Positions 605-55,590 of a stretch of DNA of 64,000 nt are shown piece after piece. The stretch covers positions 186,001-250,000 of the forward strand of contig CAILNX010000043.1 in assembly GCA_903835685.1 (NCBI GenBank). The letters are read 5' to 3'. Positions within the stretch are counted from its first letter, which is position 1; the number at the start of each line of letters is the position of its first letter. A program made the translations under genes and the position numbers. The DNA comes from an uncultured delta proteobacterium (GTDB lineage Bacteria; Desulfobacterota; Desulfovibrionia; Desulfovibrionales; Desulfovibrionaceae). Under the pieces are notes generated by a model. That model saw nothing but the letters and a program-made list of their open reading frames with translations, had not been told where the DNA came from and did not search any database.

Positions 605-648
605 CAGAAGAAGAGAAGAAAAAATAATTTCTTCTTGATGTTGCGCGC
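605..648 (+). repeat. AT-rich 3'-flanking repeat unit A
   Basis: A purine-rich strand runs into TTTCTTCTTGATGTTGCGCG, starting 23 bp after the preceding stop codon. The core is a perfect 7-bp dyad, GAAGAAA (615-621) with TTTCTTC (628-634). It shares its layout (AAGAA-rich, A/T core, TTCTT, then TGTTGCG) with the units at 2174, 2252, 16284, 44706, 44781, 53161 and 53271. Confidence 0.6.
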
Positions 649-734
649 CGCGCGCCGCCTGAAAGGATTTGAGGACCGACACCGGGGGGGATTTTCAGGA
701 CGCGGCTCCGACAGGACGAAAGACCAAAAAATCA

Positions 735-2165: not shown

Positions 2166-2173
2166 GGGGCGTC

Positions 2174-2226
2174 CGAGAAAGAGGCAGAAGAAAAAGGAAA
2201 AATAATATTTTCTTTGTGTTGCGCGC
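2174..2226 (+). repeat. AT-rich 3'-flanking repeat unit B-left
   Basis: Same family as the unit at 605: GAGAAAGAGGCAGAAG, then an AAAAATAAT core, TTTTCTTTG, and TGTTGCGCGCC. It begins 8 bp after the stop of the small hypothetical gene and points the same way. With the unit at 2252 it forms an inverted pair of about 125 bp. Confidence 0.6.
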
Positions 2227-2251
2227 CAGGAATAACCGTGTCTTTTGTGGG

Positions 2252-2298
2252 CACGCAAGAATAATAACTACTTATTTTTATTCTTCTTTCTTGGTTGG
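2252..2298 (-). repeat. AT-rich 3'-flanking repeat unit B-right
   Basis: Read on the minus strand it begins CCAAGAAAG, continues AAGAATAAAAATA, and ends TTCTTGCG. An 8-bp perfect stem, AAGAATAA (2257-2264) with TTATTCTT (2278-2285), is present. The 22 bp at 2273-2294 match 53291-53312 with one mismatch. It lies 51 bp beyond the thiE stop, in the direction of thiE transcription. Confidence 0.65.
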
Positions 2299-2345
2299 TC
2301 ATATTTCTGGACGCAACGAGGACGGAGGGGTTTGACTCAGCCAGG

Positions 2346-2987
2346 TCAGGCCCCCCGGCTGGCGGCGATGATCCGGGCCAATTCCCGGGCCGCTGCCTCG
2401 GGGTCTGCCGCCGAACACAGGGCCGAGACCACGGCCGCGCCATCAGCTCCGGCCCGCATCACCTGACCCGCATTGGCCGCGCTGAGTCCCCCGATGGCCA
2501 CCAGGGGCACGTCCGTGGCCTGGCGAATCTCAGCCAGGCCGTCCAGGCCCAGGGGCGAGGCGGCGTCGGCCTTGGTCGGGGTGGGAAAGATCGGGCCGAC
2601 CCCCAGATAGTCCACGGGCTTCCCCCAGGCCTGAAGGGCCTCCTCCAGACTGCTCACCGAAAGTCCCAGGATCATGTCCGGCCCCACGAGCCGCCTCGCG
2701 TCGGCCGGGGCCATATCCTTCTGGCCCACGTGCACCCCGTCCGCGCCGCAGGCCAGGGCCACGTCCACCCGGTCGTTGACGATCAGCGGCACGCCCGTGG
2801 GGGCCAGCAATTTTTTCACGGCCCGGGCCAGCTCCACGAACTGGCGGGTTCCGCAGTCCTTTTCCCTGATCTGGACCAGGGTCGCGCCCCCGCGCACAGC
2901 CGCGGCCACCACCTCCAGCAGGTCCCGGCCCAGGCAGGCCGCCCGGTCAGTGACCAGGTAGAGGCTCAAATCCGGGACCCCGGTCAC
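2346..2987 (-). CDS. thiE: thiamine-phosphate synthase
   Basis: Joins HMP-PP and thiazole phosphate to give thiamine phosphate in the cytosol. The 213-residue product is normal for ThiE. Family motifs run in order: LYLVTDR near the N-terminus, [18 protein letters not shown] with [11 protein letters not shown] (pyrophosphate site), [21 protein letters not shown], and the phosphate loop [10 protein letters not shown]. The start is a GTG whose last bases overlap the TGA of thiM (GTGA), indicating translational coupling. A longer in-frame extension upstream is the shadow of thiM. Expression should fall under the TPP riboswitch upstream of thiM. Confidence 0.96.
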
Positions 2988-3799
2988 GAACGGACCATCC
3001 GCAGCCGGGCCACGATGTCCGCCTCGCCCATCTGGTACAGGGCGTCGTAGAAACGCACCTGAAGGGAGCCCGGTCCAATGGAAATTCCGGGCGCCTCCTC
3101 GGCCGCCATCTCTCCGGCCAGACCCATGACCGCCATGGCGTGGGCCGTGGCCAGGAGCGGGTCGGGATTCACGGCCGCAAAGGCCCCGATCAGCGCCGTG
3201 GCCGTGCAGCCCAGGCCCGTGACCCGGGGCATGAGCGGATGGCCGTTGACCACATACCACACCCCCTGGCCGTCGGTGACGATGTCCCGGGGGCCGCTCG
3301 CGCAGACCACGGCCCCTTGGGCCTGGGCCAGGGCCTTGGCCGCGTCCAGGGCCTCGTCGCTTCCGTTCAGGCTGTCCACGCCCTTGGCCTGGGCCTTTTC
3401 CCCGGCCAGAAAGAGGATCTCCGAGGCGTTGCCCCGGATCACCGCCACCTTGACCTGATCCAGGATGGACCGGGCCGCCTGGCGGCGGTAGGCCGTGACC
3501 CCCACGGCCACGGGGTCCAGGACCACGGGCGCGCCTTTTTCATTGGCCGCGCGCCCGGCCGCCAGCATGCTGGCGATGCGCCCCGGGTCCGGGGTGCCGA
3601 TGTTTAAGACCACGGCCCCGGCATAGGCGGCCAGTTCGGCCGCGTCCTCGGGCGCGTGGGTCATGGCCGGGGAGGCCCCCAGGGCCAGAAGCGCGTTGGC
3701 CGTGGAATTGGTGACCACGTCGTTGGTGATGTTCAGGACCAGGGGGCGCAACTCGCGGATGCGCGCGAGATCGGCCCAGACGGCTGCGGCGTGATTCAT
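2984..3799 (-). CDS. thiM: hydroxyethylthiazole kinase
   Basis: Phosphorylates 4-methyl-5-hydroxyethylthiazole, feeding salvaged thiazole to ThiE. The 271-residue, ribokinase-like protein shows the usual features: [46 protein letters not shown] in segments, [19 protein letters not shown], and the C-terminal [13 protein letters not shown] catalytic region with its conserved Cys. It is the first gene of a two-gene salvage operon. It sits 85 bp downstream of the TPP riboswitch, so high thiamine pyrophosphate should shut it down. Confidence 0.96.
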
Positions 3800-3884
3800 G
3801 GACGAGACTCCGTGTCTTCGGGACGGGTGAAAGCCCCGGGGCAGGCAGGGGACGGGGAAGGAGGGATGCGGCCAATCCGAATTC

Positions 3885-3957
3885 CCTCCGGCAGTCCGAA
3901 CTGCGTCAGGTTCAATGGGTATGCTCTCAGTTCCGCCCTTTCTGGCCGGAACACCCC
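3885..3957 (-). promoter_or_regulatory. TPP riboswitch (THI element)
   Basis: On the minus strand the aptamer reads GGGGTG (start at 3957), CTGAGA (3925-3930), ATACCC, and TTGAACCTGA (3906-3915), then a 3' closing arm. These are the conserved THI-box blocks in the right order and spacing. It lies in the leader of thiM-thiE. I see no clear terminator between it and thiM, so control may act on translation. Confidence 0.9.
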
Positions 3958-3983
3958 AATCGGATCACTGGGATCGTTGTCCG

Positions 3984-4246: not shown

Positions 4247-6034
4247 ATGCGGTTGCAGAATCTGAAGATAGGCACGAGACTGTTTTCCCTGGTCGTCATC
4301 GCCTCCATTTTCCTGGTGGGCATCGGCCTGTTCAGCATTGCCAGCGTGGCCCGGGTCGATGAAAGATTCACCTCCCAGCTCGCCAGGGACAGCGATATCA
4401 AGCGCAGCATCGACCTGGCCAGAAGCGCCCAGGTCGCTTTCAAGATCCAAGTCCAGGAGTGGAAGAACGTCCTGATTCGCGGCAATGATTCGGAAAAATA
4501 TAAGAAATATTTTGAGTCCTTCCACAAGGAACACGCCTCGGTGCAGGACAAGCTGCGGGAACTCCAGGCCCTCATGGCCCGGCTCGGAATGAACCCGGAA
4601 AACGCTCAGTTGGCGGCCAAGGCCCATGCAGAGCTCCTGGAAAAATATCAGGGGGCCTTGAAGCAGTTTGATCCGGGCGATGAAAACACCGGGAAGAAGG
4701 TGGACAAGCTGGTGACCGGCATCGATCGGGCTCCGACCGAGGCTGTGGACCGGGTGGTGGATGGCATCCTGGCGGCCACCGAGGACATGCACCACCAGGC
4801 CGAGGCCCAGGCCAGGGCCAGCTACCAGGAAACAAAGCAGGTGTTCCTGGCCGGGATCGCCCTGGCCCTGTTCGTGATGGTCGCGGTTTCCCTGGCCATC
4901 ATCAGGAGCATCACCGCCCCCCTGCGCCGCACCGTGCATTTCTCCGAAGCCGTGGCCCAGGGCCAGCTCGAAGCCACGCTCGACGTGGACGGCGACAGCG
5001 AGACCGGGCTCCTGGCCGATGGCCTCCGGCAGATGGTGGCGAACTTGAAGGCCAAGATCGCCGAGGCCGAGGCCAAGGGCGTCCAAGCCAGCCAGGAGAC
5101 CGAACGGGCCTCGGCCGCCACGCGCGAGGCCCGGGAGGCCCTGGAGAAGGCGCGGACCGCCCGGCAGGAAGGCATGCTCCATGCCGCGGACAAACTGCAA
5201 GGGGTGGTGGGCGCGGTCACCGACGCCTCCGCCGAACTGTCCTCCCAGATCGAGCAGTCCAGCCAGGGCGCGGACCAGCAGGCCGGACGCGTGGGCGAGA
5301 CGGCCACGGCCATGGAAGAGATGACCGCCACGGTGCTGGAAGTGGCCCGGAACGCTTCCGAGGCCTCCAGCACAGCGGGCCAGGCCAGGGTAAAGGCCCA
5401 GGAAGGGGCCAGCGTGGTCAGCCAGGTGGTCCAGGGCATTTCAGAGGTGCAGCGCCAGGCCCTGTCGCTGAAGACCGACATGGTCTCCCTGGGCGAACAG
5501 GCCGAGGGCATCGGCAAGATCATGGGCGTCATCTCGGACATCGCGGACCAGACCAACCTCCTGGCCCTGAACGCGGCCATCGAGGCCGCCCGGGCCGGGG
5601 ATGCGGGCCGGGGATTCGCCGTGGTGGCCGACGAGGTGCGCAAACTGGCCGAAAAGACCATGACCGCCACCAAGGAAGTGGACCAGTCCGTGCGCGGCAT
5701 CCAGCAGAGCGCGCAGAAGAACATGGAGAACGTGGACCAGGCCGTGGCCACCATCGACCAGGCCACCACCCTGGCCGACCAGTCCGGCCAGGCCCTGCGG
5801 GAAATCGTGGCCATGGTGGAGCTGACCACGGACCAGGTCCGCTCCATCGCCACGGCGGCCGAGGAGCAGTCCTCCACCAGCGAGGAGATCAACCGCTCCA
5901 TCGAGGACGTGAGCCGGATATCCTCGGAAACCTCGTCCGCCATGCGCGAGTCGGCCCAGGTGGTTTCCCGCCTGGCCGAGCAGGCCCGGTCCCTGCGCGA
6001 CCTGATCCAGGAGATGCAGGACTCCTGCGTCTAG
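4247..6034 (+). CDS. methyl-accepting chemotaxis protein
   Basis: A 595-residue transmembrane chemoreceptor. TM1 spans about residues 12-34. A mostly helical periplasmic domain (35-198) looks like a four-helix-bundle sensor. TM2 spans 199-221 and a HAMP domain 221-275. The long signalling hairpin carries the near-invariant tip ([20 protein letters not shown], then [20 protein letters not shown]). The ligand is unknown. The C-terminus lacks a CheR-tethering pentapeptide. AAGGAG precedes the ATG. The region upstream (about 4085-4200) is AT-rich and probably holds the promoter. Confidence 0.95.
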
Positions 6035-6080
6035 GCTGGCGCTCCGGGATCGGCAGGGCCTTTCACCGGACGGCCGCCGG

Positions 6081-6674
6081 TTATTGCGCCCGGCCGAAAC
6101 GGGTGCTCCGCTGCTCTTTCAACTCCTCCTGACGGGCCTGCTCCAGGGTCAACTCCATCTCCCGGACCAGGTCCTCGGGGCTGATCTCGGTCCTGGCCCG
6201 CAGACGCCGGGCCGCGTCAGCCACGATCTGCTGCTCGCGCGGGGCCTGCCAGTGACGGTAACTCGTGAGCAGGGCGAAGCCCTGGTCCCGCTCCCCGGTC
6301 CCCACCTTGGCCAGCCCCAGGTACAGGGTGGCCGCCGGATCGCCCGGGACCTCGGCCAGAACCCCTTCCAGAACCGTGACGGCCTCGGAATAATCCCTGG
6401 CATGGACCAAGGCCTGGGCCAACTGGCGGCGGACATGGAGATCGCCCGGGGTCTGGGCCAGGGCCTGCCGGTAGCTGGACACGGCCTGGCTGAAGTCTCC
6501 CCGGGCCAAGGCCTGGCCCCCCCTGGTGGTGTCCGAGCAGCCGGTCAGGGCCAGAACAAGGAGGCCGAGGCACAACCCCCCGGCCCCTTTGGACCAGGAC
6601 AATGGATGAAAAAGCCTATTGAAATTCAGCCAGTTGACTTTATCGGCGCGAAGAATGTACCATTTGGGCCACAT
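6081..6674 (-). CDS. TPR-repeat lipoprotein
   Basis: A tetratricopeptide protein anchored as a lipoprotein. The lipobox is LALTGC. TPR units follow (GGQALARGDFSQAVSSYRQA, LHVRRQLAQALVHARDYSEA, DPAATLYLGLAKVGTGERDQ) and then a charged C-terminal helix. The start is uncertain. The ATG at 6674 gives a long 45-residue leader. A TTG at 6602 (MSWSKGAGGLCLG...) would give an ideal 21-residue lipoprotein signal. A further ATG lies at 6728. None has a strong ribosome site. It is divergent from the GAK cassette and may share its upstream region; a role in envelope assembly is only a guess. Confidence 0.8.
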   Translation of the reverse strand: MWPKWYILRADKVNWLNFNRLFHPLSWSKGAGGLCLGLLVLALTGCSDTTRGGQALARGDFSQAVSSYRQALAQTPGDLHVRRQLAQALVHARDYSEAVTVLEGVLAEVPGDPAATLYLGLAKVGTGERDQGFALLTSYRHWQAPREQQIVADAARRLRARTEISPEDLVREMELTLEQARQEELKEQRSTRFGRAQ

Positions 6675-16230: not shown

Positions 16231-16283
16231 ATTGGGAGCGGGCAAGGACAAAATCCGTACAGAAAAGAGTGCGCGAAGAAACA

Positions 16284-16342
16284 CGCAACGAACACAAGAA
16301 CAAGAAATATTTATATCATTCTTATTCTTGTTCTTGGTTTGG
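16284..16342 (-). repeat. AT-rich 3'-flanking repeat unit C
   Basis: Contains a perfect 12-bp inverted repeat, CAAGAACAAGAA (16295-16306) with TTCTTGTTCTTG (16325-16336), around an AT-rich 18-nt loop, with CGCAAC at 16284. Read from the response-regulator stop it runs CCAAGAAC..AAGAAT..TTCTTG..GTTGCG, the family layout, 43 bp beyond that stop and in its direction. Confidence 0.65.
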
Positions 16343-16380
16343 GTTCATTTCTTGCCTGGTGTCTGAAAGGACTGCGGCTT

Positions 16381-34792: not shown

Positions 34793-36547
34793 TTACGCGG
34801 CCCGGCCCGTTCCGGTCTGACGTATTCCGACCTGGCTCAGGCTGGCGTCGGCCGCCAGGACGCCCAGGATCTTCCCCTGGCCGTCCCGCACGGGCGTGGA
34901 CACCGTGATGCAGTTCGCGCCCGTGGCGCTGGACACGTACACGTCGGACACGGTCAGGCCGCCGGTCTGCATGGGGGCCGTGAACCAGGGCCGGGTGGAC
35001 CAGTCCTTGTTGAAAGAGGCCTTGTCCTCGGGCTTGTCCTGCCCGGGCCTGGGGATGTTGGACACCACCTGCACCCCCCGGGCGTCGGTGATGTACAGAA
35101 GCTCCAGAAAACTCGATCCCCGCACGGCCTCGCGCAGGGCCTTTTCCTGTTCCTCGCGCTTGAAACTGACGATGGCCGAAGACCTGGCCATGGTGTTGAT
35201 CAGGTCCTGGACCTCGCCCTGGCCCAGGGTCTGGAACACGGAATTCAAGGTCAGGAGTTCCTCCACCTGGCCCCATAACCCGGTCACGGCCTCCTCGGCC
35301 TGGGCCGTGCCCTGGCCCGTGCGCTCGGAAATGTCGCTGACCCGGTGGATGGAGCGGTTGATCTCCTCCCCGGCCCGGGACTGCTGCTCGGCAGCCACGG
35401 CAATGGCCTGGACCTGCTCGGCGCTGGCGCTGGCCAGGCCCACGATCTCCTCCAAGGACCGGCCGGAATCCTGGGCTCTGGCTACGGCCTTGACCACCAG
35501 GCCCACGGCCTGGCCCATGCCCTCCCGGGTCCGGCCCACCCCCTGCTGGATGGCCCCGATCTGGGCGGCCACGTCCTTGGTGGCGTTCATGGTCTTTTCC
35601 GCGAGCTTTCGCACCTCGTCGGCCACCACCGCGAATCCCCGCCCGGCCTCTCCGGCCCGGGCGGCCTCGATGGCCGCGTTCAAGGCCAAAAGATTGGTCT
35701 GGTCCGCGATGTCCGAGATCACCTCCATGATCCGTTCCACGGCCTCGGCCTGGGTTCCCAGGCTGGACACCACCGCCTCCAACTCCCCGGTCTTGGCGGA
35801 CACGGCCTGGATGGAGGCCACGGTCTCGGCCACCAGGCTGGAGCCCTCGCTGGCCTTGCGCATGGCCTTTTCCGCTTCGGCCGCGGCCCGGGCCGCGCTC
35901 CCCGCCACCTGCACCACCGAGGCGGACATCTCCTCCATGGCCGAGGCGGCCTCGGTCGTAAGCCCGCGCTGCTCGGCCGCGCCCTTGCCGGTCTGGCCGG
36001 ACACCTGGCGCAGGTCCTCGGAACTCTTGCGGATGCCGCTGGCCACCTGGCTGATGGTCCTTGATGCGGACAGCAAGCCCTGGCGCTGGGACAGCTCGGC
36101 CTTTTCCCGGGCCTCCTGGACCTGGGCCTGGGCCTGGGCGCAGCGTTCGCGTTCCCGGTCCAGCCCGGCCTGAAGCTCCTGAGTCTGGCCGTTCAGATTG
36201 CCCATTTTGTCAAGCAGGCCATCCACGGCCTGGCCCAGCCGGGCCGTTGCGCTGGTCCCATCCAGGCCGCACCGGGCCTTGGGGTCGGCGCTGGCGGCAG
36301 CCAGGACCTCCAGGACGGCCTGGGTCCTCCGGACCTGGCCCACGGCCCAGACCAGGACGGCCAGGCCCAGGGCCAGGGCCGTAAAGGCCACGATCCAGGC
36401 CAGATTCCAGTCTTCCCCGGTCGGCTGTCCCGAGGCCTGGGCTGCGGCCAGGGTCGCCCCTGGGAACAGGCCCCACCCTCCCCAGAACATGCCCCCCAGA
36501 ATAATATGGGGGCAGGCCCGGGAAATCCTTCGTAACAATTCAGTCAT
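34793..36547 (-). CDS. methyl-accepting chemotaxis protein with C-terminal Cache-like domain
   Basis: 584 residues. Two N-terminal hydrophobic segments (about 10-35 and 48-70) enclose almost no periplasmic part. The coiled-coil signalling domain carries the conserved tip ([20 protein letters not shown]). After it (about 470-575) comes a PAS/Cache-type sensor: [18 protein letters not shown], a [15 protein letters not shown] block, [31 protein letters not shown]. The sensor is thus cytosolic and C-terminal, opposite to classic receptors. AAGGAG precedes the ATG at 36547. The gene is controlled by the promoter with an operator-like dyad at 36657. Confidence 0.92.
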
Positions 36548-43975: not shown

Positions 43976-44626
43976 TCAGTGTTCCCAGAACAGGTAGTTC
44001 TTCACTTCCAGCACGCCCGCGACGCCCCGGGCCACGCCCTCCACCCGCCGGGCCTCCTCGGACGAGGCCACCACGCCCAGGAGCACGGCGTTGCACTGGA
44101 CCACTTCCACGTCGATGTTGGTGGAGCGGACCTCGGATGCGCCGATGAGGGCGGCGCGGATTTTTCCGGCCAGGTACAGGTTGTCAGGACGGCCGCAGAA
44201 GGACGCGCCCTTGGGAAACAGGTAGCCGGTCACGGACACCACCCCGGGCGTGCCCTTGGCGATAGACACCAGACGGCGGACCTGGGCCCTGTTCTGGTAC
44301 TCGCCGAGCAGAAAGACCCGGCCGGAATAGCTGTAGGTGTGCATGTTCAGGTAGCTCAAGGAGTCGTCGGCCATGATCTCGGCCACGATATTGGCCCGGA
44401 TGCCCGTGTCGGCAAGCATCTCGCCGCTGCCGCGCTCCTCCTGGGAGAACTTGTAGGCCGTGGCGCTGGCCGGGGCCACGGCCACCACAAAGGACACCAC
44501 CGGCCCCGAGGCCGGAACCATGGCCGCCAGGCATCCGGTGAACAGACTGGCGTTACAGGCCAAAAGAAGGGCCGCGCCCAGGCCAAGGCAAACCCTCTGG
44601 CCCCTCTGGCCTCCGGGAATCAGCAT
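43976..44626 (-). CDS. BON-domain lipoprotein
   Basis: 216 residues. A signal peptide ends in the lipobox SLFTGC. Two BON domains follow (about 75-140: GIRANIVAEIMADDSL, SGRVFLLGEYQNRAQV; and about 150-215: LAGKIRAALIGASEVRSTNI, AVLLGVVASSEEARRV). This is the layout of OsmY/DolP-like envelope proteins that bind phospholipid surfaces and help keep the outer membrane sound. GAGGGGGA precedes the ATG. An AT-rich dyad lies 28 bp upstream. Confidence 0.88.
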   Translation of the reverse strand: MLIPGGQRGQRVCLGLGAALLLACNASLFTGCLAAMVPASGPVVSFVVAVAPASATAYKFSQEERGSGEMLADTGIRANIVAEIMADDSLSYLNMHTYSYSGRVFLLGEYQNRAQVRRLVSIAKGTPGVVSVTGYLFPKGASFCGRPDNLYLAGKIRAALIGASEVRSTNIDVEVVQCNAVLLGVVASSEEARRVEGVARGVAGVLEVKNYLFWEH

Positions 44627-44653
44627 TCCCCCTCACAAGAATGCAAGAATATG

Positions 44654-44672
44654 AAATAATGAATTATTATTT
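44654..44672. promoter_or_regulatory. AT-rich dyad upstream of BON gene
   Basis: AAATAAT-GAATT-ATTATTT, a perfect 7-bp inverted repeat about 30-45 bp before the BON start. It could be an operator or part of the promoter; no clear -35/-10 pair was found. Confidence 0.45.
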
Positions 44673-44705
44673 GTTTCAGTCTTCGAAATCGGCAGCGTCC
44701 CGAAT

Positions 44706-44754
44706 CCAAGGACAAGAAAAAAAAATATGAATTTTTCATATTCATTTGTCGCGC
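44706..44754 (+). repeat. AT-rich repeat unit D-left
   Basis: CCAAGGACAAGAA, then A9, a perfect 8-bp dyad AATATGAA (44724-44731) with TTCATATT (44735-44742), and TTTGTCGCGCC. Same layout as the unit at 605. It lacks an upstream plus-strand gene but is paired with the unit at 44781. Confidence 0.5.
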
Positions 44755-44780
44755 CTTTGAATTCCGTTCCCTTGAATGTG

Positions 44781-44828
44781 CTTGCGACATAACAGACTTA
44801 TTTTATTATTTTTCTTCTTTTCTTCTGG
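44781..44828 (-). repeat. AT-rich 3'-flanking repeat unit D-right
   Basis: On the minus strand CCAGAAGAAAAGAAG, an AAAATAATAAAATAA core, then TGTTATGTCGCAAG. It lies 20 bp beyond the stop of the CgeB-like gene and points in its direction. This is the most diverged copy. Confidence 0.5.
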
Positions 44829-44848
44829 CCCATTCCGCAGACGACTCC

Positions 44849-46471
44849 CTAGGCCCTCCGCTCCAGGCCCACGGCCGCAAGCAGGGCCGTGACCCTCTGT
44901 CCATAGGTGTGCTCCCGGGCCACCAGGGCGGCGAACTCCCGGCGCACCTCTTCCCGAAGCGGGCGGCCCGGCCCCAGGCGCTCGGCCAGGGCCGGGATGT
45001 CCCCGGCCTGGGCAAAGCTCACCTCCCGGACCAGGTCGGCCGGAAAGAGGTCCAGGCCTGGCGTGGCGTCGGTGATGAGCACCCCGCCCGCGGCCCAGAC
45101 GTCGAAATGGCGCTGGGTCAGGCCCCGGGGCAGGAGCAGGCTGGTCAGATTCAGGTTCAGCCCGGCCTGGCGGTAGATGCTCGGCAGGGGACCGTAATAG
45201 TCCACCTCGGGCCTCAAGGCCGAAAGCCCGGGGACCAGCTCCCGCCAGCGGGCGTCGCCGAACACCGTGAGCCCGGCCGCGCAGGCGGACTCAAGGCACA
45301 GGGCGCGCCAGGCCTCGGCGCAGGTCTCGGCCGCCAGTCCCACCCTCCGGGCCTCCTGGCCCGGCCACAGGATGCGGGCGGAATATTGGGCGCGCCACCA
45401 GGCGTAGTCCGGCCGCAAACCCCGCTCAAGCATGGCCCGGGCAGCCACCTCCCGGCCAGGGTCCAGGGACTGGCCCGCGAAAAAATCCTCCTTGCCCGGA
45501 AAGCGCGAACGGCCCACGAAGACCACCTGCTCTCCCAGGCCCTGGGCCGCCTCGATCAGCCCGGCCGAACTGGCCGAACTGGCCTGGAACATATGCTGGG
45601 CAGCGGCCAGGGGCAGGTGGAAGACCCTGGCCGCCCCGTGCTGGCGCAAGGGGTCCAGGAACCAGGAGTCCGTGACCAGCAGGCTGCACTGGGTCCAGAA
45701 CCCGGAGCGCAGCCGGGACACCAGATGGAAGGGATTGTCCACGCACCACACGGCCACCGGAACCCCGGCCTCGGCCAGGAGGTGGTAACTCTCGCCCAAG
45801 GGGTCCAGGCCCTGGAAATTCACGCTCAGGAAAAGCTTGGGCTTCCCCTCCTTGAGCAGGCCCAAAAGGTCCCCGGGCGAAATCTGGGGGTCCAGCAGGC
45901 GCACCCCGTATCCGGCCTCGTGCAGGGCCTGGATCAGTTCCCGGCGCACCAGGGAGGTCTCGGAGCCCGGCAGCCAGACCTCGGTTCGGCAGGGACCGGG
46001 CGGGTCGTGCAGATGGAGGCGCACCCGGGCCCAGAGCGGCCCCCAGAACGAGGGGAAGAGCTTCAAGTTGGGGCGGTACCAGAACAGGGTGGAGGTGCGC
46101 ACGAAATCCCGGGTCAGGGCCTCGGGCTTGATGCGCTTGAATCCCAGGGGATTGCGGCCGCCGGGATGGCCCGGAAGCTGGGCCTCAAGCTCCGGGCATT
46201 CCAGGAAGAAGGTCTCCCGTCCCCGGCGCACCTGGCCCGGGAACACCCCAGGGTTCGGCCCCAGGCCCAGGAACACGAAGCGGGACCCCCGGCCGAGCTG
46301 GATGAACTCGCCCGGCCCCTCGGGCAGGCTTTGGCTCTGGCCCACCTCGTTGACCACCTGGATACGTTCGGGCCTCTGGGTCACGGGCGTCTCCGGGGCT
46401 CGGTCATTACGCTCACCATCGGGGTTCTCTCCCGGCGACAAACTTGTACTTGAATTCCAGGCAATTGTCAC
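44849..46471 (-). CDS. CgeB-like glycosyltransferase
   Basis: About 540 residues. A first part (about 55-130) contains FVFLGLGPNPGVFPGQV. The second (about 165-540) resembles the CgeB/DUF3880-type GT-B family: ALHEAGYGVRLLDPQ, LFLSVNFQGLDPLGE, VAVWCVDNPFHLVSR, VFVGRSRFPGKEDFF, GLTQRHFDVWAAGGVLITDA, EHTYGQRVTALLAA. The related gene at 51018 shares the second part. Such enzymes often glycosylate flagellin or surface glycans. The start is uncertain: GTG 46471 has AAGG adjacent, and an internal GTG near residue 40 is possible. It is divergent from rlmE with only 37 bp between. Confidence 0.78.
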   Translation of the reverse strand: MTIAWNSSTSLSPGENPDGERNDRAPETPVTQRPERIQVVNEVGQSQSLPEGPGEFIQLGRGSRFVFLGLGPNPGVFPGQVRRGRETFFLECPELEAQLPGHPGGRNPLGFKRIKPEALTRDFVRTSTLFWYRPNLKLFPSFWGPLWARVRLHLHDPPGPCRTEVWLPGSETSLVRRELIQALHEAGYGVRLLDPQISPGDLLGLLKEGKPKLFLSVNFQGLDPLGESYHLLAEAGVPVAVWCVDNPFHLVSRLRSGFWTQCSLLVTDSWFLDPLRQHGAARVFHLPLAAAQHMFQASSASSAGLIEAAQGLGEQVVFVGRSRFPGKEDFFAGQSLDPGREVAARAMLERGLRPDYAWWRAQYSARILWPGQEARRVGLAAETCAEAWRALCLESACAAGLTVFGDARWRELVPGLSALRPEVDYYGPLPSIYRQAGLNLNLTSLLLPRGLTQRHFDVWAAGGVLITDATPGLDLFPADLVREVSFAQAGDIPALAERLGPGRPLREEVRREFAALVAREHTYGQRVTALLAAVGLERRA

Positions 46472-52335: not shown

Positions 52336-53151
52336 CTACTTCACCTCCACCCGCTCCAGAATCTTCCACTGCCCGTCTTCCTGGATCAGGGTGAAGTCGT
52401 CGCCCTCTTCCTCTTCCTCGGTGATTCCGCCCACCAGCACCAGCAGGGTGCCCGTGACCCGGACCTTGGCCCGGGTTTCGTCCTTTTCCAGGACCCGCAG
52501 GGTCAGGCCCTTGGTGTCCACATAGGCCTTGCGGAAGCGCTCGAAGACGCCCCGGCCCTTTTGCATGGCCTGAAGCTTGCCGAAGGACTGCGCCTCGTGC
52601 TCCCGGGGGCCTCGGGCGAAGAGTTGGGGGAAGGTGTCGTCCAGGGTCCAGACCCGGATGAAATAGTCCAGCACAGGCTGGGCCGCCGCATCGACAGGGG
52701 GCTCGGGCAGGACTTCCGGCTTGGGCTTGGCCGGTTCGGGCTTTTCCTTGCGGCCCTTGTCCTTGTCCTTGTTCTTGGCCTTGTCCTTGTTCTTGCCCTT
52801 GCCATTAACCTTGCCATTGTCCATCTCGGGCTTGCCGGGCGCGGGCTGGTCGGGAGTTCCGGGCGCGGGCTGGACTTCGGCCTGGGCTTCGGGCTGGGCG
52901 GCTAGTTTATCATTCGGGGCCGGGGCTTTCAACAGGGGCTGGGCGTCGGTGGACGGATCGTCCAGACTGACCGGCGCGGTGAGCTTGCGGGCCGGGGGCT
53001 TGGACCAGCGCTCCTCGGGACCCAGGGGCGCTGGATCGGGTGAGCCTTGCGCACCGGCCGGGATGACCGGAAGCAGGACCAGAAGGCCCAGCAGGATCAA
53101 AAGGCGCAGGGGCCGCAGGGCCGACCAAGGGGAGGGGAAAGGAGTTTTCAC
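52336..53151 (-). CDS. secreted protein with Lys/Asp-rich linker and NTF2-like end
   Basis: 271 residues. A Sec signal (ALRPLRLLILLGLLVLLPVI, cleavage near PAGAQ) is followed by a Pro/Ala-rich part, a low-complexity Lys/Asp/Asn stretch (GKGKNKDKAKNKDKDKG) and Pro-Glu-Lys repeats (about 60-165). The C-terminal ~100 residues (VLDYFIRVWTLDDTF, FRKAYVDTKGLTLRV, FTLIQEDGQWKILERV) look like an NTF2/SnoaL-type fold. The GTG at 53151 is chosen: GAGG lies 8 bp upstream and the signal peptide starts at once. The longer frame upstream is repeat unit E-left. Confidence 0.72.
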   Translation of the reverse strand: MKTPFPSPWSALRPLRLLILLGLLVLLPVIPAGAQGSPDPAPLGPEERWSKPPARKLTAPVSLDDPSTDAQPLLKAPAPNDKLAAQPEAQAEVQPAPGTPDQPAPGKPEMDNGKVNGKGKNKDKAKNKDKDKGRKEKPEPAKPKPEVLPEPPVDAAAQPVLDYFIRVWTLDDTFPQLFARGPREHEAQSFGKLQAMQKGRGVFERFRKAYVDTKGLTLRVLEKDETRAKVRVTGTLLVLVGGITEEEEEGDDFTLIQEDGQWKILERVEVK

Positions 53152-53160
53152 CGATACATC

Positions 53161-53200
53161 CTCATAATAAAAAAAGAATAAAAATTTCCTTATGTTGCGA
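53161..53200 (+). repeat. AT-rich repeat unit E-left
   Basis: ATAATAAAAAAAGAATAAAAA, then TTTCCTTATGTTGCG. Same layout as the unit at 605. It lies just upstream of the NTF2-like gene start, and no plus-strand gene precedes it. It forms an inverted pair of about 150 bp with the unit at 53271. Confidence 0.5.
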
Positions 53201-53270
53201 ATCATCGCCTCGACGAAATTCAAGCACGCGGCCCTTGTGTCCCGTTCCAGAATCGGCCGTCTCTTTCAGA

Positions 53271-53313
53271 CGCACAAGAAGAGAACTCACTATTTTTATT
53301 CTTCATTCTTGGG
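53271..53313 (-). repeat. AT-rich 3'-flanking repeat unit E-right
   Basis: On the minus strand CCAAGAATGAAGAAT, AAAAATA, then TTCTTGTGCG. CAAGAA (53275-53280) pairs with TTCTTG (53306-53311). The 22 bp 53291-53312 match 2273-2294 with one mismatch. It lies 25 bp beyond the copper-ATPase stop, in its direction. Confidence 0.65.
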
Positions 53314-53337
53314 AGATCACCGTTCGGGAATGCGGCA

Positions 53338-55590
53338 CTAGGGCTTGAAAAAACGCAGCCGCAGGGCGTTTGTAACCACCATGACCGAACTGGCGGCCAT
53401 GGCCCCGCCCGCCAGCATGGGCGAGAGCGTGGGGCCGCCGAAGAGATGCAGGACCCCGGCCGCCACCGGGATGCCCAGGACGTTGAAGGCAAAGGCCCAG
53501 AACAGGTTCTGGCGCATGTTGCGCACCACGGCCCGGCTTAAGGCCAGGGCCGTGAGCAGGCCGCGCAAGTCCGGGCGCATGAGCACCATGTCCCCGGATT
53601 CGATGGCGATGTCGATGCCCGACCCCATGGCCACGCCCAGGTCGGCCAGGGCCAGGGCCGGGGCGTCGTTGATCCCGTCCCCGACCATGGCCGTGGGCAG
53701 GCCCTGGGCCTTGATTTCGGCGATGACCTCGGCCTTGCGGTCGGGCAGGACCCCTGCCCGCACCTCGTCCACCCCGGCCTGGCGGGCGATGATCCGGGCC
53801 GCAGCCTCCACGTCGCCGGTGAGCATGACCACCCGGATGCCCTGGGCCTTGAGCCCGGCCACCACCTCGGCGCTTTCCTCCCGCAGCCTGTCGGCCACGG
53901 ACAAGAGCCCGGCAAAAGCGTTGTCCACAGCCGCCCAGAGCACGGTCTGGCCCGCCTCGAACAGGGCGGCCGGGGCCAGGGCGGGCAGGCCCGTGACCTG
54001 CTCCTGTTCCAGAAGCGCCCGGTTCCCGGCCAGGACCGCCCGGCCCCCCACCCGGGCGCGCACGCCCAGGCCCGGCAGGGCCAGGAACTCCTCGGCCTGG
54101 GGCAGGGCCAGGCCCTCCTCCTCGGCCGCCCGGACCACGGCCCGGGCCAGGGGATGCTCCGAGGGCCGCTCGGCCCCGGCGATGAGGCCCAGGAATTCCT
54201 CCCGGCCCAGGCCGGGCTCGGGCAGGACGCTCGCCACCTCGGGCCGCCCCACAGTCAGGGTCCCGGTCTTGTCCAGGACCACGGCCCGGATGCGCGAGGC
54301 GGTCTCCAGGGCCAGGCCGCTTTTGATGAGCACGCCCAGGCGCGCGCCCCGGCCCGTGCCCACCATGATGGCCGTGGGCACGGCCAGGCCCATGGCGCAG
54401 GGGCAGGCGATGACCAGGACGCTGACGAAAATCTTCAGGCCAAAGGCTGCGGGCTCGCTGCTGAAAAGCGCCCAGGCCGCGCCGGAAAGCACGGCCACGG
54501 CCATGACCGCGGGCACGAAATACAGGCTGACCCGGTCGGCCAGGTTGGCCATGGGGGCCTTGGAGCCCTGGGCCTCGCGCACCAGTTGCACGATGCGCGA
54601 GAGCAGGGTGTCCCGGCCTACCTTGAGGGCCGTGATGGTCAGGCTGCCCTCCTGGTTCAGGGTCCCGGCCCGCACGGCCTGGCCTGGCCCCCGGGTCACG
54701 GGCAGGGGCTCGCCGGTGAGCATGGACTCGTCCAGGCTGGACTGCCCGGCGACCACCTCGCCGTCCACGCACAGCCGCTCGCCCGGCCGCACCAAAAGGA
54801 GGTCCCCGGCCCGGACCTCGGCCACGGGCACCAGCACCTCCCGGTCGCCCTCCAGGCGGGTGGCCATCTTGGGGGTCAGGTCCAGCAGGCCCTTGACCGC
54901 GTCCGAGGTGCGCGAGCGCGCCCGGGTCTCCTGAAACTTGCCCAGGGTGATCAGGGTCAAAAGCACGACGGCGGATTCGAAATAGAGGTCGTGCGCGCCC
55001 GAGGCCGGGTCCGGCCCCAAAAGCATTCCGGCCAGGGTCCACAGGCTCATGGCCACGGCCGCGCCTGTGCCCAGGGCCACCAGGGAGTCCATATTCGGAG
55101 TCCGCCGCCAGAGGTTGGGGAATCCGGCCAGGTAGAAATGGCGGCAGAACCAGAGCACGGGCAGAGTCAGGGTCAGTTGGGCCAGGGCAAAGGCCCGGGG
55201 CGCGTGCATGGGGGACAGCCAGTGCGGCAGGGGCAGGCCGACCATGTGGCCCATGGACAAGACCAGCAGGGGCGCGGAAAACAGGGCGGACATGGTCAGG
55301 CGTTTCTTCAGTTCGGCCAGGCGGGACCTGGTCTCGGCCTGCTGGATCTCGAAATCCGAGGGGCCTTCGGGGGTCAGGCGCTCCGGGGTGAACCCGGCAT
55401 CGCGCACGGTCTGCTCCAGGTCCTTGATCCCCAGGCGCTCGGGGTCAAAGGACACCTCGGCGGTCTCCGTGGCCAGGTTCACGCTGGTCGCCGAAACCCC
55501 GTCCAGCCCTGAGAGCATGCGCTCCAGGCGGGAGGAGCAGGCCGCGCAGGCCATGCCCCTGACCGCCAGTCGTTCCTTGGTCGTGCTCAT
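53338..55590 (-). CDS. copA: copper-translocating P-type ATPase
   Basis: 750 residues, P1B-type. An N-terminal metal-binding domain has GMACAAC (12-18). Eight membrane helices are expected. The actuator motif is LTGEP, the membrane site CPC is at 396-398, the phosphorylation site is DKTGT, the nucleotide site is SEHPLA, and the hinge is GDGINDAP. The last helices hold FN (Phe-Asn) where the usual copper site has YN, and MAASS. It exports Cu(I) from the cytosol. AAGGAT precedes the ATG. No cueR or csoR regulator is adjacent. Confidence 0.94.

Follow-up and report, generated by a model that had tools for sequence, protein, structure and literature searches.

The window analysed here is a stretch of 64,000 nucleotides, positions 186001-250000 of contig C43 in a 65-contig draft genome of 3.94 Mb that is 97.56% complete. 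Its GC content is 66%, and the relatives of its proteins belong to Desulfovibrio and allied genera, which makes Desulfovibrionaceae the probable family. Genes were called by a simple codon-usage script, in which stops are more reliable than starts, and the gene starts are therefore approximate. The AT-rich islands that the initial annotation reported in this GC-rich sequence are indeed present, and searches of the genome place them in a dispersed repeat family. They are referred to below as A to E. Two of them are single copies lying between convergent genes: C, on the minus strand at 16264..16361 (cmsearch 29.4 bits, E 9.4e-4; nhmmer E 8.9e-7), and A, a partial copy on the plus strand at 613..649 (nhmmer E 0.0027), which is absent from the covariance-model matches at E<=1 and is equalled in score by 28 of 1000 block-shuffles of 582-690.

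Island B carries an intact copy on the minus strand (2213..2322; cmsearch 89.5 bits, E 5.2e-19 over 2213-2317), positioned 3' of a thiamine-phosphate synthase gene (2346-3050, minus strand), and a degenerate copy on the plus strand (2166..2262; cmsearch 32 bits, E 1.9e-4), which none of 1000 block-shuffles of 2160-2265 equals in score. The two copies share 50 bp, and the “tail” GTGTTGCGCGCC after the left AT-rich arm can be read as the outer end of the intact copy. Near the thiamine-phosphate synthase gene there is also a TPP riboswitch (3865-3968, minus strand) that scores above the Rfam gathering threshold. Island E consists of an intact minus-strand copy (53234..53341; cmsearch 75.3 bits, model positions 1-105 over 53234-53336), the left end of which, CTAG at 53338-53341, contains the TAG stop codon of a P-type ATPase gene (53338-55590, minus strand). 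Tail to tail with it lies a weak, degenerate plus-strand unit (53141..53237) that reaches 16.8 bits and E 7e-4 in a local search of 401 bases; nhmmer returns E 2.8 over 464 kb for 53171-53238, and 38 of 1000 block-shuffles score as high.

Island D is the most complicated. Its middle unit (44670..44768) is degenerate, and covers what had been noted as a left arm and centre. Two methods disagree on the orientation of this unit: the covariance model prefers the minus strand (26.9 bits, versus 13.0 for plus), whereas plain alignment favours plus, with 0 of 1000 block-shuffles scoring as high, versus 29 of 1000 for minus. Beside it is a 5'-truncated minus-strand unit (44606..44664) that overlaps the first codons of a BON-domain ORF (43976-44626); nhmmer gives it E 1.1e-8 in the 464 kb, and none of 1000 block-shuffles of 44600-44680 scores as high. 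The right arm (44740..44852) is at best a decayed minus-strand unit, with 2.1 bits over 44772-44845 and 11 of 1000 block-shuffles scoring as high; it would start at CTAG 44849-44852, the stop codon of the minus-strand gene at 44849-46471. Within D there is also a 17-bp palindrome, ATATGAA-TTT-TTCATAT (44725-44741), which lies upstream of the minus-strand BON-domain gene and could be an operator.

When single units were used as queries against the genome, dozens of additional matches appeared. When 27 copies from a 464-kb sample of the genome (a further sample plus the window, and the basis of all density, CTAG and region counts given here) were laid out side by side, conservation extended well past the AT-rich part on both sides. 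A covariance model of 105 positions, built on 13 copies, was scored on the best 150 of 1069 candidates in the genome, of which 121 match at E<=0.1; at E<=1e-4 there are 99 copies, from 85 sources, and 96 of these span the whole model. A profile of the 96 copies matches 37 times in the 464 kb at E<0.01, which by simple extrapolation corresponds to ~310 copies per genome; it matches neither the reversed sample nor any of 58 loci from relatives. Base counts outside the model in the 96 copies show that conservation ends at one tetranucleotide on each side, and column counts over the same copies support terminal inverted repeats. The unit is thus ~110 bp long, with inverted ends (CTMG-n-GTCGCGTTCC...GGAACGCGAC-n-CKAG) that flank an AT-rich palindrome; in fuller form the consensus is CTMG-n-GTCGCGTTCC.GAAA..., the palindrome GAAGAATAAGAATAATTATTTCTTATTCTTG, and ...GCCAATTCCGGAACGCGAC-n-CKAG. 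Being short, present in many copies, bounded by terminal inverted repeats and too small to hold a transposase gene, it is aptly described by the earlier term MITE-like. No Rfam family matches the repeats in the window above the gathering score, the only matches there being to a tRNA and the TPP riboswitch.

A scan with the ends alone, the core being masked, found 21 matches at 18 places, versus 2 in the reversed control (score 18). Three of the 18 places match on both strands, and the AT-rich core is present at 17, although the scan is not fully independent, since the copies used to train the end profile had themselves been detected through the core. The exception, in the window at 6031-6134 (minus strand), has paired element-like ends around a middle of only 24% AT, and may be a chance match or a decayed copy. 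There are also internally deleted copies. One (C43:282727-282798; L021 12727-12798) retains CTAG at both ends, and in another (L195 1417-1473) the core is joined straight to the right end. At the start of contig C57 (L188 1-208), the left half of a copy near the contig end has been replaced by an apparent insertion-sequence end, presumably IS1595-like.

The distribution of the elements relative to genes is far from even. In the 464-kb sample they occur in 12 of 31 convergent regions, 21 of 159 co-directional regions and 1 of 49 divergent regions, with one match falling in none of these (Fisher p 2e-4 for convergent and 5e-3 for divergent regions). Of the 99 copies from across the genome, 98 are flanked by genes on both sides, only 3 of them between divergent genes, and 1 overlaps a called gene. 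About half of the copies (46 of 98) have a stop codon that coincides, to the base, with one fixed position of an element end. These exact stops are found at the left end in 26 cases and at the right end in 21, one copy having both. Among the 46 exact ends that were tabulated (one, on a short copy, was dropped), 40 end in TAG and 30 are CTAG, while TAG accounts for 157 of 410 stops overall in the 464-kb sample. CTAG is itself strongly depleted in this sequence, with 147 sites versus 337 expected from trinucleotides; 63 of the sites, almost half, are at stop codons, 65 are between genes (element ends included) and 19 are inside genes.

In the cases open to a test, judged from the positions at which the adjoining proteins end, the element lies at the native end of the gene and does not truncate it. 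Of the 47 proteins with an exact stop, a scan covered 30, and all 12 that have an NCBIfam model above cut-off reach to within 4 positions of the C-terminal end of the model; the remaining 18 have no such model and are uninformative either way. The ATPase at E was compared with 19 proteins of relatives, paralogues among them: its C-terminus lies no more than 2 residues from that of 9 and no more than 15 from that of 16, and the other 3 extend ~100 residues further.

Taken together, we consider it probable (roughly 0.7) that the islands belong to a MITE-like family of non-autonomous elements, ~110 bp long and bounded by terminal inverted repeats, that inserts at CTAG. The copies would have arisen by transposition, moved by a transposase acting in trans; no empty site was seen, the 38 relatives searched all belonging to other genera. 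In this GC-rich genome, insertion at CTAG would take place mainly at TAG stop codons and intergenic sites, and it is because CTAG is found mainly at TAG stops and between genes that the gene would retain its stop and acquire the element as 3' flank. With its end often on the stop codon, the family has apparently been able to spread without breaking genes. The AT-rich palindrome may be passive, or of use only in a secondary way. A mobile repeat that takes the stop codon as its insertion site could settle at hundreds of gene borders with no damage to the proteins, and this family would account for the AT-rich 3' islands of a GC-rich genome.

Relatives of the element in other genera are recognisable by their ends. 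A search of 38 relatives' genomes, all from outside the genus of the source, with the core unit gave one weak match in each of two (E 0.006 and 0.007), and the whole model has no matches in 287 other genomes of the family (E<=1e-4, stricter filters). The end pattern CTAGNGTCGCGNTCCNGAA, with up to 1 mismatch, has 68 matches in 23 of the same 287 genomes, from 8 other genera, and thus “lineage-specific” applies to the core and not to the ends, given that the end pattern alone revealed relatives. The reversed pattern has 21 matches in 19 of 288 genomes. The number of genomes with any match is close to this, and therefore single matches may be due to chance; two or more matches occur in 16 of the 287 genomes (5 genera), versus 2 genomes for the reversed pattern, with a maximum of 8 per genome.

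Fifty of the 68 matches were read in their loci. A stop codon falls exactly at the left CTAG in 35 of the 50, under a rule that requires TAG, while the other two frames pass the frame and GC3 rule in 2 of 100 cases; the left-end CTAG figure is enriched, because it was the left end that served to select the loci. A right end is found within 175 bp in 44 of the 50 loci, giving a length of 100-125 bp in 27 of them, and some of these 44 right ends are due to chance, since, with up to 3 mismatches allowed, 15 of the 50 loci also contain the reversed motif. The exact stop is at the right end in 9 of the relatives' loci and at both ends in 5. Of the 25 loci with a stop at the left end only, 8 have CGAG and 4 have CTAG at the right end. 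The cores vary from genus to genus, several of them being rich in AT. By eye, four loci of one genus (L271, L277, L284 and L309, from genomes G276, G286 and G284) seem to have two neat subterminal hairpins around TAATTATTTTTT, an architecture unlike that of the core described here.

How the element joins its target can be addressed from the sequences at the two ends. In our genome, ends into which no gene reads favour CTCG, as read from outside (14 of 66), compared with CTAG at 30 of the 46 stop ends, and among 44 copies the far end, in the direction of the exact-stop gene, reads CGAG 8 times and CTAG 4 times. Target-site duplication is weakly supported. In direct sense, the terminal tetramers of 96 copies have 160 identities versus 155.8 when shuffled (p 0.30), and CTAG is present on both sides in 5 of the 96. 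In 75 tests of window and offset, neither the register expected for a 4-bp repeat nor that for a direct NCTAGN repeat on both sides is outstanding, and six off-register combinations reach p<0.02. For asymmetric end tetramers, in a test devised post hoc, direct agreement is 4 versus 0.80 expected (p 0.004) and inverted agreement 1 versus 1.26. A plain duplication of CTAG, considered as a candidate, is unsupported overall, as the far end is often CGAG and tetramer identity is no higher than in shuffles; the CGAG at the far end is not explained by a simple 4-bp duplication.

Both a DDE-type duplication of CTAG and a conservative insertion, with host CTAG on the near side and CGAG of the element on the far side, are possible. 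The second of these is a variant of the mobile-element reading and not an alternative to mobility. According to it, a recombinase or single-strand transposase would insert the element without duplicating the target, so that the CTAG next to the gene would come from the host and the CGAG on the far side from the element. We regard this tentatively, as a version that may well not hold. It would account for the near-side CTAG and far-side CGAG seen both in our genome and in the relatives, and also for the base that follows CTAG, which varies where the end is a stop (T in 9 of 46) and tends to T where no gene reads in (29 of 66). Enzymes of the IS200/IS605 type have a fixed polarity, whereas exact stops here are found at either end of an asymmetric element. 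CTAG also occurs on the far side as well as the near side in the few copies noted above, and at the right end in 15 of 44 relatives' loci. Finally, no Y1_Tnp gene was found in the genome (0 matches in the 65-contig draft, with 5 of 14 control genomes positive). A broader proposal, about equally tentative, is that miniature elements with conserved ends and lineage-specific cores are found across the family and use TAG stops as a safe harbour, again without target duplication: the host CTAG would be kept as the stop codon, the element would supply the CGAG at the far end, and the enzyme would be one not yet recognised.

The closest published precedent that we found for the use of CTAG and of stop codons is an IS481-type enzyme. 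As described in the available part of the report, TnRErm46 (ISRe46), of the IS481 family, has NCTAGN flanks and an inverted repeat given as TGTTGCGGGT... and also as TGTTGCGGGTC..., and its CTAG supplies stop codons to adjoining genes (PMC6794481). The present element is alike in having a CTAG at the junction that can be used as the stop codon of the neighbour. The inverted repeat of TnRErm46 begins TGTTGCG, sharing 6 of 7 bases with our element and 10 of 20 overall, a level reached by 1.3% of shuffles, and we take this resemblance between sequences as a lead and not as proof. Unlike the element described here, TnRErm46 has a transposase and a clear NCTAGN direct repeat according to the same part of the report; the present element has neither a gene nor a hexamer repeat of this kind, and its far end frequently reads CGAG. 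No full-length IS481 transposase was found in the genome, only three matches below cut-off, and an IS481 fragment at the end of contig C60 has no matching element end. No match to PF01609 was found in the genome, and a simple motif scan of 30 fetched IS481-type loci, all from relatives, found no such ends. Thus, no autonomous relative with the same ends was seen in the IS481 and PF01609 searches or in the 30 IS481-type loci. The end signature is easily scored, and can be used in looking for the enzyme that moves the element.

It could be asked whether the repeats are instead functional 3' elements, that is, transcribed hairpins that terminate or stabilise transcripts and have been selected at gene ends. 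Placement 3' of genes and near-absence between divergent genes would both be expected, and the positions of the AT core are mostly ~85-95% conserved (88 copies), compared with ~50-75% at many end positions. Compensatory changes are also in excess in the 99 model-aligned copies (150 versus 90.6), but that alignment had been fitted to the structure, and its covariation is not relied on. When 24 copies are anchored on their end tetramers, the arms pair no better within copies than between them (0.708 versus 0.712). For the inner palindrome, 88 copies yield 4 double changes versus 3.5 expected, with pairing slightly higher than in shuffles (0.874 versus 0.866, 16 of 1000 scoring as high). Covariation on the 13 sequences is not significant, and RNAalifold finds no structure on the unanchored alignment. 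Several copies fold well and others no better than shuffles, which proves little for a palindrome. Canonical terminator-like sites are found at 2 of 34 gene ends with the element and 18 of 136 without it, a small difference in a scan that finds few such sites anywhere and is hence uninformative. Lineage-specific cores on conserved ends fit mobility better, and selection as a 3' element is on balance unlikely. We read the signal of structure as the decay of inherited inverted repeats, with possible constraint on the better-conserved AT core.

In the literature searched, which takes in few subscription journals, there is no description of such a repeat in Desulfovibrio, or of a similar MITE associated with stop codons or CTAG. 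Among known families, ERIC, IRU and RU-1 duplicate a TA target, while the target here would be CTAG. In the parts of the sources at hand, they are described as short imperfect palindromes with terminal inverted repeats that are mostly intergenic and present in tens to hundreds of copies (PMC10969869, PMC2759123), all of which they have in common with the present family. They differ from it in size and hosts, and Rfam gave no match to the repeats in the window. In a case in which RU-1 is located at the 3' end of a gene, the old stop codon was removed and a point mutation inside the element created a new one, according to the available part of the report (PMC2759123). CIR of Caulobacter and QMITE2 of Coxiella are, like the elements here, MITE families that are strictly intergenic or biased to 3' UTRs, and exact anchoring on stop codons is not mentioned for them in the available sections of the source (PMC10969869).

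The initial annotation had taken islands B (2174-2298), D (44706-44828) and E (53161-53313) to be inverted pairs, and had argued from D and E for insertion of a whole paired element. The pairing holds for B, with its intact minus copy and degenerate plus copy; E has one intact copy and a weak remnant to its left, and D contains no clear inverted pair. Insertion of a whole inverted pair as one element would be consistent with B, which is inverted, and with E, which may be. However, each unit is one element of ~110 bp that contains just one AT-rich palindrome, and most of the 37 matches in the 464-kb sample are solitary, the arms being largely conserved independently of one another. Neighbours within 300 bp form only 2 pairs among the 37, that of B being inverted and that of D on the same strand, and overlap and spacing differ between B and E. 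Since B, D and E differ in make-up and pairs are rare, the whole-pair model is unsupported, and we consider it very improbable; the “pairs” are best read as neighbouring or abutting insertions of single units, and paired forms are exceptional.

Mobilisation by a RAYT transposase, as REP or BIME repeats, is likewise very improbable, for although the elements are palindromic, lie 3' of genes and are occasionally paired, the genome has no Y1_Tnp, and their unit of ~110 bp with two inverted ends is not the 20-40-bp hairpin tagged at one end that is described in the available part of the source (PMC3733652). The GTAG/CGTC REPs and BIMEs covered there share the palindromic form and a placement that is mostly convergent or co-directional, with most copies between convergent genes, in the two species for which this is shown, no more than 20 bp from either 3' end, and differ in their size of 20-40 bp, the tag at one end and the association of the GTAG class with RAYT (PMC3733652). 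The window also contains a much larger inverted repeat of 194 nt (5488-5681 and 35569-35762), the two arms of which are 85% complementary and 30 kb apart, and these are probably paralogous chemoreceptor coding segments.
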